NCBI GenBank assembly: GCA_035573435.1 | Contig: DATMZR010000031.1 | Span: 62,001-126,000, forward strand | Direction: 5' to 3' | DNA: 64,000 nt | DNA from: Solirubrobacterales bacterium | GTDB lineage: Bacteria; Actinomycetota; Thermoleophilia; Solirubrobacterales; 70-9 | Shown: positions 49,368 to 57,944 of the stretch, piece by piece | Numbering within the stretch: the first letter of the stretch is position 1 | Layout of the letters: the number at the start of each line of letters is the position of its first letter | The notes under the pieces: generated by a model | What the model was told of the DNA's origin: nothing | The model's database searches: none | Seen by the model: the letters and a program-made list of their open reading frames with translations, nothing else | Translations under genes and position numbers: made by a program

Positions 49368-50579
49368 TTGAGTGAGGATGTGTTGGTCCGGCCCGTCGGC
49401 GCCAGCCTTGGATTGCGCGCCCGGCTGCTGGGCATCGCGCTGCTGTTGACCGGGATCGTTGTAGCCGTGCTGGGGTCGCCCGTCGGCGCTCAAGCCGCCG
49501 ACAACGTCAACGTCAGGATCATGACTCGCAACGTGTATCTGGGGGCCGACCTGAGTCCCGCGATCAACGCCTCGACCACGAACGAGTTCGTCGACGCCAA
49601 CGGCCAGATCGTCCGCGACGTGGACACCAACAACTTCCCGGTCCGCGCCAAGGGGCTGGCTCAGGAGATCCTCAGCAAGAGCCCCGACCTGGTGGGGCTC
49701 CAGGAGGTGGCGCTGTGGAGGAAGGGCCCGCTCAACGACTCCGCGCCCTTCACGTGCAACGGCACGCCCGATGAGGACTCACCCTTCGGTTGTGACTTCA
49801 CTGCGTCGACGGTCAGGTACGACTATCTGCGCGACCTGCTCAGGGAGCTCAACAAGGACAAGCAGCGCTACAGGGTCGTGATCTCCCAGAAGGAGTTCGA
49901 CTTCGAGGCGCCGACCGACTACAACGGCGTCGCGGGAGACGGCGACGCCTGCCCGGCCCAGTGCGACGGCGAGGAGAACGATCGCCTGACGATGCGCGAC
50001 GTCATCCTCGCCCGCACCGACCGCGTGACGACGACGAACGTCAAGGCCGGCCATTTCGAGCATCACTACGCGCCCGAGATCGCCGGCACCGTGACCGTGC
50101 ACGTCCTGCGCGGTTGGACCCAGGCGGACGTGACGGTCCGAAACAGCCACAAGTTCCGGTTCGTCAACACCCACCTGGAGGCGTTCGGAGACCCGACAAT
50201 CCGTAGAGATCAGGCGCGGGAGCTGGTCCAGCCGGGCGGTCCGGCCACGGGCAAGGCGCCGGTGATCCAGGTCGGGGACCTGAACTCAGACGACAACACG
50301 GTTCAGGGGGGCGACCGGCTGGCCTACTCCGTGTTCCTCAACCACGGATTCCGCAGTCGCAGCACCGAGAATCCGCTCAGCTGCTGCCTGGACTCCGACA
50401 TCATCACCGCGAACGGGGGCGGCAGCGTCAGCGACTTCGACCATCACGTCGATCACATTCTCACCAACGCGCCGCAGGCGGTGGGACTGGTGCGCTCATC
50501 CGTCACAGGGCGACAGCCCGTGAACGGATTTTGGGACTCCGATCACGCAGGAGTGTTCAGCAACCTGCTGGTGCACTAG
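49368..50579 (+). CDS. Secreted EEP-family nuclease/phosphatase
   Basis: A 403-residue exported EEP-fold protein. The hydrophobic segment LLGIALLLTGIVVAVLGSPV (residues ~20-40) ending GAQAAD is a signal peptide. The catalytic set is visible: RIMTRNVYLGAD, VGLQEVALW, FRFVNTHLEAFGD, VIQVGDLNSDD and DSDHAGVFSN. The Cys-rich inserts (FTCNGTPDEDSPFGCDF, ACPAQCDGEEND, LSCCLDS) suggest disulfides. TTG 49368 has AGGGGAGGACATC directly upstream. Its end overlaps the convergent GDPD gene by 23 bp. Confidence 0.88.
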   Translation: MSEDVLVRPVGASLGLRARLLGIALLLTGIVVAVLGSPVGAQAADNVNVRIMTRNVYLGADLSPAINASTTNEFVDANGQIVRDVDTNNFPVRAKGLAQEILSKSPDLVGLQEVALWRKGPLNDSAPFTCNGTPDEDSPFGCDFTASTVRYDYLRDLLRELNKDKQRYRVVISQKEFDFEAPTDYNGVAGDGDACPAQCDGEENDRLTMRDVILARTDRVTTTNVKAGHFEHHYAPEIAGTVTVHVLRGWTQADVTVRNSHKFRFVNTHLEAFGDPTIRRDQARELVQPGGPATGKAPVIQVGDLNSDDNTVQGGDRLAYSVFLNHGFRSRSTENPLSCCLDSDIITANGGGSVSDFDHHVDHILTNAPQAVGLVRSSVTGRQPVNGFWDSDHAGVFSNLLVH

Positions 50580-51366
50580 GCGTCGCCGGCGCGGGTTCCG
50601 CGTCGAGGAGTACTGAGGTTGACGGTGCCTCCTCCAGCCTCAGGGCCTCGGCGCGGAGCTCGGCCGGACGATCCGTGCAGACGGCGTCCGGGAGCGCCAG
50701 CTCCGTAACCCGAGCGAGCAGCTCGGCGTCGTTCACGGTGCCGGTGCTGACGCTCAAGCCGGCGAGGCGGAGGACGGCGACGAGCTTCGGCGCCAGCAGG
50801 AAGTGCTCCACTGAAACCCCGGTGACTCCGCGGCTCACGGCCCACGCGGCGAGCGCCTCGGGCGCGTACTCCGCCCAGACGACGAGGCGAGACCGCAGAC
50901 CGTAGGCCGCCGCGGTGGCGCAGGCCGCCGAGTGGAAGCTGATCAGCTCGAGGCGGCGCCGTTCGGGCCCGGTCCGGTAGCGCTCGCAGAGGATCTGCGC
51001 CGTGCGCCGCGCTAGCTCCGGATCGGCGTGGGCCTTGACCTCTACCTGAATCGGCAGGTCAGACGGGGTGGCGGCGAGCAGCTCGTCCAACGTCATCGCC
51101 CGTTCCGCCGTCGGCTCGCCATTGCGATCGAGGGTTCGAGCGCGGAGGATCTCGGTGGCGCTCCGCCGATGCGCCCAGCCGCCGAGCGTGGTGCCGAGCG
51201 TAAGCAGAGGGTCGTGAAGGAGGACCAGCTCGTCGTCCGCGGTCACGCAGACGTCGGTCTCGAGGCCGTCGACACCGGCCGCCAGCGACGCGGCCAGGGC
51301 GGTGGCGGAGGAGTCGGGCCCATAAGCGCGACCGAGGCGGTGTGCGTAAAGCGCCGGAATTTGCAT
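50557..51366 (-). CDS. Glycerophosphodiester phosphodiesterase (GDPD) family
   Basis: A 269-residue GDPD-fold protein hydrolysing glycerophosphodiesters to glycerol 3-phosphate. HRLGRAYGPDSSATAL (first motif; the usual PEN-T is changed), GVDGLETDVCVTADDELVLL followed by HD (metal Glu-Asp and catalytic His) and LPIQVEVKA are present. The C-terminal ~30 residues are Ala/Pro-rich. There is no signal peptide, so it is intracellular. It follows no obvious operon, being convergent with the secreted EEP gene. Confidence 0.85.
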   Translation of the reverse strand: MQIPALYAHRLGRAYGPDSSATALAASLAAGVDGLETDVCVTADDELVLLHDPLLTLGTTLGGWAHRRSATEILRARTLDRNGEPTAERAMTLDELLAATPSDLPIQVEVKAHADPELARRTAQILCERYRTGPERRRLELISFHSAACATAAAYGLRSRLVVWAEYAPEALAAWAVSRGVTGVSVEHFLLAPKLVAVLRLAGLSVSTGTVNDAELLARVTELALPDAVCTDRPAELRAEALRLEEAPSTSVLLDAEPAPATPSAPAGC

Positions 51367-51419
51367 ACAAACATGGCACTAAACGCCGTCCCCGCCGGTG
51401 TTACGGGAGTGTGACCTCG

Positions 51420-52220
51420 TCACTCTTCGGCTACCAGGGTGCCGATGATCCGTGGGTGGCCGTCGATCACCGGCGTATCGACGATCTCCGTACCGCCGAA
51501 GCCGGCGTGGCCGGCCAGACGAGCCAGGCTCTTGCCCGTGAAACCCCAATACACGTAGTCGTCGTGAGCGTAGACCTCGCCCGGCTCCCAGACGTGCACC
51601 GCGGCCTCGTGCTCCAGATCGGGGCTGGTGACCCCGTGGGTCTCGAGCAACACGCAACCGCCGTCCGCGAGACGGCGCCGCAGCACCCCGAGCAGCCCTA
51701 GCGGGTCCTCGACCCGATGCAGGATCCCGAAGCAGAAGACCAAGTCGAACTGGTCGTGGAGCAGGTCGAGGTCGAACGCGTCGAGGCGCTGGTACTCGAC
51801 CTGCGAGCGCAAGAGCTCGGCGATCGTCCGGAAGCCCGCGCCGCCCTCGAGCTCGACGCCCCAGCGGGCCAGGACCCAGTCGCGGTATTGCTCGTTGTCG
51901 ACCGCGACCACGCGCTCAGCTCCCCGAGCCTCGGCCAGGAAGGCATAAAAGCCGTCGAACGTCCCGACGTCGAGCACGCTCATGCCGCTGAAGTCCTGGG
52001 GCAGGACGGGAATCCGGTAGCGGTGGTCCCGCGCCACGCCCGGCGTGTACATGGCGCCCCCGTCGAGGGAGAAGGTGTGAAACCAGAGCGGAACGCTCTC
52101 CAGCGCCGCGCGGGCCGTCTCCTCGTCGGCGCCGATCGGCAAGAGGTCGGCGACCGCGCGCTCGGCGCGCGTGGGTTGCGGTAGTCGCTCGCGGCTGGCG
52201 ATCTCGTCTCGAACTGCCAT
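51420..52220 (-). CDS. Class I SAM-dependent methyltransferase
   Basis: A 266-residue methyltransferase. The SAM motif I SVLDVGTFDGFYAFLAE is at about residue 85, motif II acid in VVAVDNEQYRDWV and motif III region FDLVFCFGILHRVEDPL. The layout, with ~75 residues before the core, resembles CmoB/DUF1698-type methyltransferases; a specific substrate (tRNA wobble carbon or a small molecule) cannot be stated. ATG 52220 begins the first helix. Confidence 0.85.
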   Translation of the reverse strand: MAVRDEIASRERLPQPTRAERAVADLLPIGADEETARAALESVPLWFHTFSLDGGAMYTPGVARDHRYRIPVLPQDFSGMSVLDVGTFDGFYAFLAEARGAERVVAVDNEQYRDWVLARWGVELEGGAGFRTIAELLRSQVEYQRLDAFDLDLLHDQFDLVFCFGILHRVEDPLGLLGVLRRRLADGGCVLLETHGVTSPDLEHEAAVHVWEPGEVYAHDDYVYWGFTGKSLARLAGHAGFGGTEIVDTPVIDGHPRIIGTLVAEE

Positions 52221-52391
52221 ATCGATCCAGGGCGAGTGGCGCCGTGGCCATCGCTCGTGCCCCACCTAGGTATAGCGCGGCTCACCTGGCACCTCAACCC
52301 CATCGCCCCGCGGGGGCGGCCGGGTCACCTTGCCGGTGGCCCGACTAGTATCTCGGCGCCACGGGGATCCGAGCCCCCCGGCGGCAGTCGA

Positions 52392-52793
52392 ATGAGCAAG
52401 CGACCCTTCGTGATCTTCGGCATCCTCGCGGTCATCTGCCTCGTCGCGCTGCCTTTCTGGGCGCTCTCCGGCGAGGGATCGAGCGACGCGTCGCCGGAGG
52501 GCTCGGTCTCCTCCTCGGATCAGCAGGGGCTCGAGCTGTTCCAGATCAACTGCGGCGCCTGCCACACGCTGACCGCAGCAGGCACCGACGGCGTGATCGG
52601 ACCCGACCTCGACGCGCGATTCGGAGCCACCACCAAGAGCGCAGACACAGTCAAGTCCACCTACACGACGGTTCTGACGACGATCGAGAACGGCCTCGGC
52701 GGCAGGATGCCCAAGGGCATTCTCCAGGGTGCCCAGGCGAAGGCCGTGGCGCAATTCGTGGCGGACAACGTCCAATACATCCCCGGTTCCTAG
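52392..52793 (+). CDS. Small cytochrome c
   Basis: A 133-residue c-type cytochrome with an N-terminal membrane anchor/signal (FVIFGILAVICLVALPFWAL, residues ~6-25). The haem motif is INCGACHTL (CxxCH) and the distal ligand is likely Met in GGRMPKGILQG. It faces outside the membrane and passes electrons. TAGTAT at 52346-52351 is a candidate -10. The downstream 272-bp intergenic region before dnaK is unusually structured. Confidence 0.9.
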   Translation: MSKRPFVIFGILAVICLVALPFWALSGEGSSDASPEGSVSSSDQQGLELFQINCGACHTLTAAGTDGVIGPDLDARFGATTKSADTVKSTYTTVLTTIENGLGGRMPKGILQGAQAKAVAQFVADNVQYIPGS

Positions 52794-52834
52794 GAACCCG
52801 GGCCAACTCGCGCGAGCTGACCGAGGCGTTCAAG

Positions 52835-53032
52835 CGTCGCTGCCTGAGCCCGGCCCGGGCTAGCGACGAATATTCCGCCGGAAGCCTCGGCCATCGGCCT
52901 ACGTTTCCGGCGGGCGAGGGCCCGGGCCTTACCCGGCAGGCACCTCCGTATCTACCGCGACTGCGTCGCTAGCCTGGACCAGGCTCAGTGCAACCCGTGA
53001 ACGCTGGGGACATCTGCTAGCCTGAGACTCAG
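52835..53032 (+). other. Structured repeat element upstream of dnaK
   Basis: The 272 bp between cytochrome c and dnaK hold no gene. They contain three direct copies of a CGTCGCT(A)GCCTG-like segment or its GCTAGCCTG half at 52835-52846, 52964-52976 and 53016-53024, and one inverted copy at ~52857-52868. A 25-nt arm (52844-52868) pairs with 52964-52988 (22 Watson-Crick pairs, one G-U, two C-A). A hairpin with a 9-bp perfect stem (52875-52883/52905-52913) lies between. Alternatives: structured regulatory RNA, MITE-like repeat (3-bp TGC flanks both ends of the 25-nt repeat) or a leader with alternative folds. Confidence 0.55.
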
Positions 53033-53039
53033 ATTTCCT
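53030..53039 (+). promoter_or_regulatory. CAGATTTCCT motif upstream of dnaK (shared with clpB)
   Basis: A 10-bp sequence 26 nt upstream of the dnaK GTG, identical to 57935-57944 upstream of clpB. In dnaK it follows the palindrome CTGAGACTCAG; in clpB it follows CTTGATGACA. The common context is [CT]TGA-N4/5-CAGATTTCCT. It may be a heat-shock operator; the classical HspR inverted repeat CTTGAGT-N7-ACTCAAG is not present in either place. Confidence 0.4.
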
Positions 53040-53053
53040 GTCGACCTATTTAG

Positions 53054-57283
<4,230 letters not shown>

Positions 57284-57934
57284 GACCCTCCGCGTCTCGC
57301 GATTCGGGATAGCTCGCCTTGTAGGCCCGCAGGCGAGCCAGGAACGCCAAGAGCGGGAAGAGCACTCGCTGCACTGTGCGCGGCGGCCGGGTGACGACGA
57401 AGTAGTCGCGGACCTCCCACAGTGTGAGCACCGACTGCAGGAGAGGAGGTCGGCCATGCCTGTTCACTCTGCCATCGGCCGCGAGCCCGAAGAAGGTCGC
57501 GAAGAAGGTCTCCACGGACTTCAAGCCGGGCCGGTACTCGCTGATCATGTGAAGCTCCTCCGCTCCTCCGTTCCTGAAGATGTGGGAGACGCCCACCGGC
57601 ACCGTGACCACCTCGCCTGGCTTCCCTGGCCGCTCGGCGCCATCGATCCGAAAGATCGGTGAGCCCGCGAGGATCTCGAACCGCTCCTCCTGGATCGGGT
57701 GGAAATGGTCGGGCCCGACCCAATCCCCCGGGCCGGGCGTGACCCGGATCTCCATTCGGGTCAGCTCCCCACCGGTCTCCGCCGCGACGTCCAGCAGCGT
57801 AATCCGCTCGCCCGTGTGAGGATTGTCGAATTGGCGCCGCGATCTCGCCACGGGCAGAAGTATGCTCGACCGAGGGCCCGTCGCGCCCCCTCGCGGGGCT
57901 ATCGGCCCGGGCACAGATCTAAGTCTTGATGACA

Positions 57935-57944
57935 CAGATTTCCT
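57935..57944 (+). promoter_or_regulatory. CAGATTTCCT motif upstream of clpB (shared with dnaK)
   Basis: Identical to 53030-53039 upstream of dnaK. Here it lies directly upstream of and touching the clpB -35 element, a position suited to repression. Confidence 0.4.

Follow-up and report, generated by a model that had tools for sequence, protein, structure and literature searches.

A dispersed, structure-conserved hairpin repeat with one copy between a cytochrome c gene and the dnaK promoter in a Solirubrobacterales genome

Just upstream of dnaK in the window (the whole 64,000-nucleotide stretch of DNA analysed here) lies what we take, with a probability of about 0.85, to be a copy of a mobile hairpin repeat that is non-coding, non-autonomous, and REP- or MITE-like in behaviour. 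In this lineage the copy would have inserted behind a cytochrome c gene and ahead of the dnaK promoter, landing there by chance beside an unrelated, highly conserved heat-shock promoter. This differs from the original prediction, which read the same place mainly as an alternative-fold element controlling the heat-shock operon.

The repeated unit is ~114 nt long (~52867-52980 in the window). Its edges are sharp as judged by information content over 30 + 32 copies: it begins GAATAAC-TCCGCC... and ends ...GTCGCTAGCCC-RRRC (CTAGCCC-RRRC), and the flanking sequence beyond is near random. Searching the window's own genome (G000, 2.6 Mb) with the DNA of the region returned dozens of partial copies at 73%–92% identity. 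A covariance model built from 28 copies matches the dnaK copy at 52870-52982 (R1 covariance-model match, 115.8 bits, E 8.7e-23) and finds at least 50 copies in G000 and at least 57 in the congener G001. The further copies that the original prediction called for are therefore present, but the 145-bp repeat it described is not the repeated unit, since other copies share only the ~114-nt segment. Mean identity among copies is 75% inside either genome and 69% between the two. In the same family, G002, G006, G007, G015, G017, and a few more genomes, other genera among them, have fewer, diverged members; where other families of the order were sampled, the covariance model found none. Across the genomes of 84,980 species, a strict repeat pattern matched a single MAG, from New Zealand groundwater; the set searched may not have included the genome of the window. 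There were no matches to the repeat in a viral collection, and Rfam returned only a sub-threshold chance match, on the dnaK side of the region.

The unit folds into two well-supported hairpins and a third, weaker one (Table 1). In A1, the sequence-only alignment used for the covariation counts, the whole structure has 51 two-sided cells compared to 16.3 in shuffles, and the covariation score is 0.267, compared to 0.069 or less when the partners are slid. In hairpin III, a C-G pair is exchanged for G-C on both sides in 4/28 G000 copies and 10/29 G001 copies. Hairpins I and III are recovered separately in alignments A3 (G001 copies alone) and A4 (G002, G006, and G007 copies alone), and hairpin II is recovered in neither. 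A pairing of GGGCTAG with CTAGCCC was also considered, and was dropped because the G001 copies do not preserve it.

Table 1. Features of the dnaK upstream region, with positions in the window
Feature	Position	Strand	Evidence
Upstream cytochrome c-like gene (longest ORF, start approximate)	52236..52793	+	Pfam Cytochrome_CBB3, E 2e-7
43-nt fragment holding the "direct copy" 52835-52841	52804..52846	+	98% identical to coding DNA at G000 C34:144-186
Inverted 3'-end stub directly beside the repeat, forming the left arm of the 25-nt stem	52844..52868	-	Sequence match to repeat family
One copy of the interspersed hairpin repeat, from AT-rich 5' box (GAATATTCC) to 3' end (CTAGCCTGGACC)	52867..52980	+	Covariance model and edge information content
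Hairpin I (10-bp stem, internal loop, short apical stem)	52875..52913	+	7/13 pairs with pairing-preserving two-sided changes
Hairpin II (GCCT/AGGC), weakly supported	52926..52941	+	1/4 pairs covarying in A1
Hairpin III (GCGAC-TGC-GTCGC)	52957..52969	+	Two-sided exchanges in 2/5 pairs
dnaK -10/operator ATCTGCTAGCCTGAGACTCAGATTT, probable HspR site	53012..53036	+	Conserved before dnaK in 30/30 genomes
dnaK	53066..54973	+	NCBIfam DnaK, 1013 bits

That the repeat moves is suggested by sites without it. At all four G000 sites examined fully, the regions with the same flanks in G001, G002, and/or G003 carry no repeat, and where G000 has one copy of ~125 bp, a few bases separate two convergent stop codons in the counterpart. 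As these comparisons span species that are ~80% identical in DNA, the exact insertion points are uncertain. Elsewhere G000 and G001 each have a copy in a shared neighbourhood, in some cases in opposite orientation and in others from a different or unrelated subfamily. The junctions between copies show a pattern of their own: in front of 14 copies stands a 5' half-hairpin stub derived from a second copy, which often belongs to a different subfamily, and the stub breaks off close to the hairpin I apex; in front of three stands an almost complete unit whose end is at the hairpin III apex. Tandem arrays were also seen, with two units joined at the hairpin III apex in L045 and L047, and four units at a spacing of roughly 90 bp in L164 (2033-2421, G001). 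A second palindromic module (GGGAGCCGNAGGCGACCGGTC...; GGGAGCCGNAGGCGACCGGTCATCCGGCGAAGCCGGATG) is found at 14 places in the genome; some copies of the repeat have it inserted within hairpin I or close to hairpin III, in either orientation (L040, L037, L045, L050, L145, and L032 in G000, and L087 in G001).

The repeat has no terminal inverted repeats, its two edges being unrelated in sequence, and no target duplication was found across the family, in which the longest edge repeats are close to those of permuted pairs; excision and insertion are therefore not directly visible. The 3-bp TGC flanks reported for the dnaK copy are not common to other copies. The alternative of a MITE origin, proposed on the strength of those flanks, is right in kind, given the many copies and their absence from the four orthologous congener sites, but the lack of terminal inverted repeats and target duplications argues against a standard MITE.

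Elements derived from IS200/IS605 carry subterminal imperfect hairpins at each end, with an AT-rich site on the 5' side, and make no target duplication. It is possible, if doubtful, that the repeat is a deletion derivative of such a Y1 transposase element, with a 5' hairpin behind an AT-rich site and a 3' hairpin; its asymmetric subterminal hairpins, its AT-rich 5' box, and its lack of both terminal inverted repeats and target duplications would all fit, and a RAYT-like gene exists in the assembly. That gene is the only one recovered by a search of the genus for Y1 transposases. It scores below the NCBIfam cut-off and lies on a 5.2-kb contig (C9) that holds no copy of the repeat and may be a contaminant, and the search gave no match in the incomplete assemblies of the other three congeners, G001 with its many copies included. 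The gene itself (L084 4654-5221, G000 contig C9) is cut by the contig end and is preceded by TTTCTAGGTGCC repeats of its own. No transposase linked to the repeat was found in these draft assemblies, and the interval between two inverted copies in G006 (L127), where an autonomous element might be sought, holds ordinary ORFs only, none of them transposase-like when the translations were read by eye.

The placement of copies is biased. Of the 73 intergenic copies, 52 lie downstream of a same-strand gene as called by a simple ORF-based method (binomial p 0.0004), often 1-6 nt past the stop. Convergent settings are more frequent than divergent ones (25 vs 9, binomial p 0.009). The CTAG of the 3' edge often provides the stop of a convergent ORF. 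Another 17 copies fall inside called ORFs, perhaps in part through caller error. Near two tail-to-tail copies in G001 there is a c-di-AMP riboswitch (Rfam RF00379; L086 4410-4501, minus strand), which is unrelated to the repeat.

Such a bias to gene 3' ends and convergent gaps could also mean that the copies are functional 3'-end RNA or DNA elements (a terminator, an mRNA stabiliser, or a gyrase-type site) that are under selection, with mobility secondary. Stop codons supplied by the element edges, stems preserved by compensation, and the neighbourhoods that are occupied in both G000 and G001 are consistent with this idea. It is nevertheless unlikely, as congeners lack copies at orthologous 3' ends, orientation varies at shared positions, most relatives in the family have few copies or none, and the hairpins, unlike those of intrinsic terminators, are not followed by a U-run.

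For a mobile repeat, the reading we prefer, these observations suggest a possible mode of spread. Copies would move as hairpin-forming single strands or templates, which a nuclease or transposase may recognise in trans; insertions would survive mainly right behind stop codons, where they should do the least harm; and new copies would often join at the hairpin apex of an older one. A bolder version, in which the family represents a new class of multi-hairpin mobile repeat whose spread is self-targeting and directed to hairpin apices, joining those of older copies with no standard transposase, seems to us improbable.

The dnaK copy itself lies 77 nt 3' of the cytochrome c ORF and 84 nt 5' of the dnaK start. 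The 25-nt stem reported there, with arms at 52844-52868 and 52964-52988, is real: the arms are 88% complementary and 95 nt apart, with 22/25 bases paired, and with those 22 matches they form the best 25-nt inverted repeat in the 272-nt region 52794-53065, for which 300 dinucleotide shuffles gave 18 or fewer. The region also folds better than its shuffles (z = -4.3). The stem exists because the 3' end of the dnaK copy pairs with an inverted 3' stub beside the same copy, positions 103-120 of the upstream flank matching element positions 107-90 in inverted form. The element-derived part of this stub stops near the apex of hairpin III, and comparable inverted stubs were seen at only two other sampled copies (L033 and L092). 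The compensatory changes found in hairpins I and III of the family thus give the covariation that was looked for, but none of them concerns the 25-nt stem.

The competing short hairpin has a different source. Its left arm, the direct copy CGTCGCT (52835-52841), sits in the 43-nt fragment, which also has 93% identity to C27:236-278. The fragment is stranded between the cytochrome c gene and the repeat and looks like filler DNA. By our reading of a motif, its source gene may encode an AAA+ ATPase (MoxR-like); the 140-aa piece had no Pfam match. With the long stem formed by the stub and the partner of the short hairpin located in this fragment, the alternative pairings come from a local patchwork. 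Of the two mutually exclusive pairings, the short one, CGTCGCT with 52862-52868, can form in truncated RNAs (P ~0.9 for 52794-52900), but in the full 272-nt region it is predicted at zero at 25, 37, and 55 °C and the long stem has P ~0.91. In silico, the long stem stays at P ~0.9 throughout 25 to 65 °C and is dominant at every temperature, so no thermal switching is predicted. The order of folding during transcription may affect which pairing forms.

Downstream of the repeat, ATCTGCTAGCCTGAGACTCAGATTT contains a TAnnnT -10 together with an inverted repeat. Each of the 30 genomes compared within the order has it ahead of dnaK (27 by the strict pattern, three as one-base variants), and it occurs at one place in the whole genome when up to three mismatches are allowed. 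The third half copy reported at 53016-53024 and the palindrome over the dnaK -10 do exist, as TAGCCT (53018-53023) and CTGAGACTCAG; both, however, are parts of this conserved promoter/operator, which is independent of the repeat. In the window, clpB is preceded by ATCTAAGTCTTGATGACACAGATTT (~57917-57941), a similarly spaced sequence of 25 nt whose outer half-sites are identical to those of the dnaK motif, and the dnaK operon encodes HspR. From these motifs, 53012-53036 is a probable HspR (HAIR-like) operator, with binding predicted, and dnaK control is better assigned to it than to the repeat stem. With the -10/operator positioned 3' of the repeat, the predicted dnaK start site probably comes after the repeat as well, which would leave the repeat outside the dnaK mRNA. 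In the window, GDPD, methyltransferase, and cytochrome c genes (50557-52793) stand between dnaK and the 49368-50579 ORF; in G001 and G012, dnaK is directly preceded by an ORF whose end is like that of the 49368-50579 ORF.

A dnaK-specific RNA or DNA switch (thermosensor) that works through the alternative pairings, as first proposed, is scarcely credible, for although the long stem is far above chance and truncated transcripts can adopt the short hairpin, the repeat is missing before dnaK in 29 relatives (two congeners included), the outer stem is private to the dnaK copy, the pairings depend on a stub and a foreign gene fragment beside that copy, no temperature response is predicted, and the conserved promoter lies downstream.

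This removes a tempting but wrong heat-shock switch. It also puts on record, from a bacterial lineage about which little is known, a large family of repeats whose structure is conserved and which fits the definition of neither REP nor MITE. The hairpin-apex junctions offer a concrete, testable hint on spread, a question that is open for most bacterial palindromic repeats, and the -10/operator conserved before dnaK provides a usable HspR-site hypothesis for the order.

Compared to known systems, the region differs from an RNA thermometer or riboswitch for dnaK, which would be conserved in the leader of that gene; here the 29 relatives have no copy before dnaK, and Rfam gives no match above threshold. 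The 53012-53036 segment resembles HspR/HAIR-controlled dnaK promoters in having an inverted-repeat operator over the -10 and HspR in the dnaK operon (binding is predicted), but this is a neighbouring feature, distinct from the repeat. With IS200/IS605-derived elements, to which a RAYT link is known (PMC2817692), the repeat shares its subterminal hairpins, AT-rich 5' side, and lack of target duplication; it differs in that no cognate transposase was located. Bacterial MITEs (ERIC, NEMIS/Correia, and RUP) are likewise in the 70-300 bp class, non-coding, dispersed beside genes, and of stable secondary structure, and the presence/absence polymorphism of MITEs and other mobile repeats is seen here too, in the four congener sites and the dnaK leaders that lack the repeat; terminal inverted repeats and target-site duplications were the two MITE features not detected.

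REP elements, too, are located 3' of genes and provide stop codons (PMC3733652). Like REP/BIME (GTAG-, CGTC-tagged; PMC3733652) and RAYT-associated REPs (PMC2817692), the repeat is dispersed and intergenic, lying behind genes and between convergent or unidirectional ones, and its copy number and placement are those of a REP (at least 50 copies in 2.6 Mb, and most intergenic copies behind a same-strand gene). As in REP/BIME, complementary changes keep the stems, edges supply stop codons, and copies may be clustered, inverted, or in tandem. A REP, however, is one 20-40-bp palindrome with an unpaired terminal GTAG/CGTC tag, whereas the repeat is ~114 nt long, holds two to three hairpins that differ from one another, and has CGTC only inside the hairpin III stem. 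In the REP/RAYT arrangement, inverted copies flank a RAYT, and in these draft assemblies the only Y1 match has no copy on its contig. Failing the defining tests of both classes, the repeat nonetheless behaves like the mobile repeats of the REP and MITE type.
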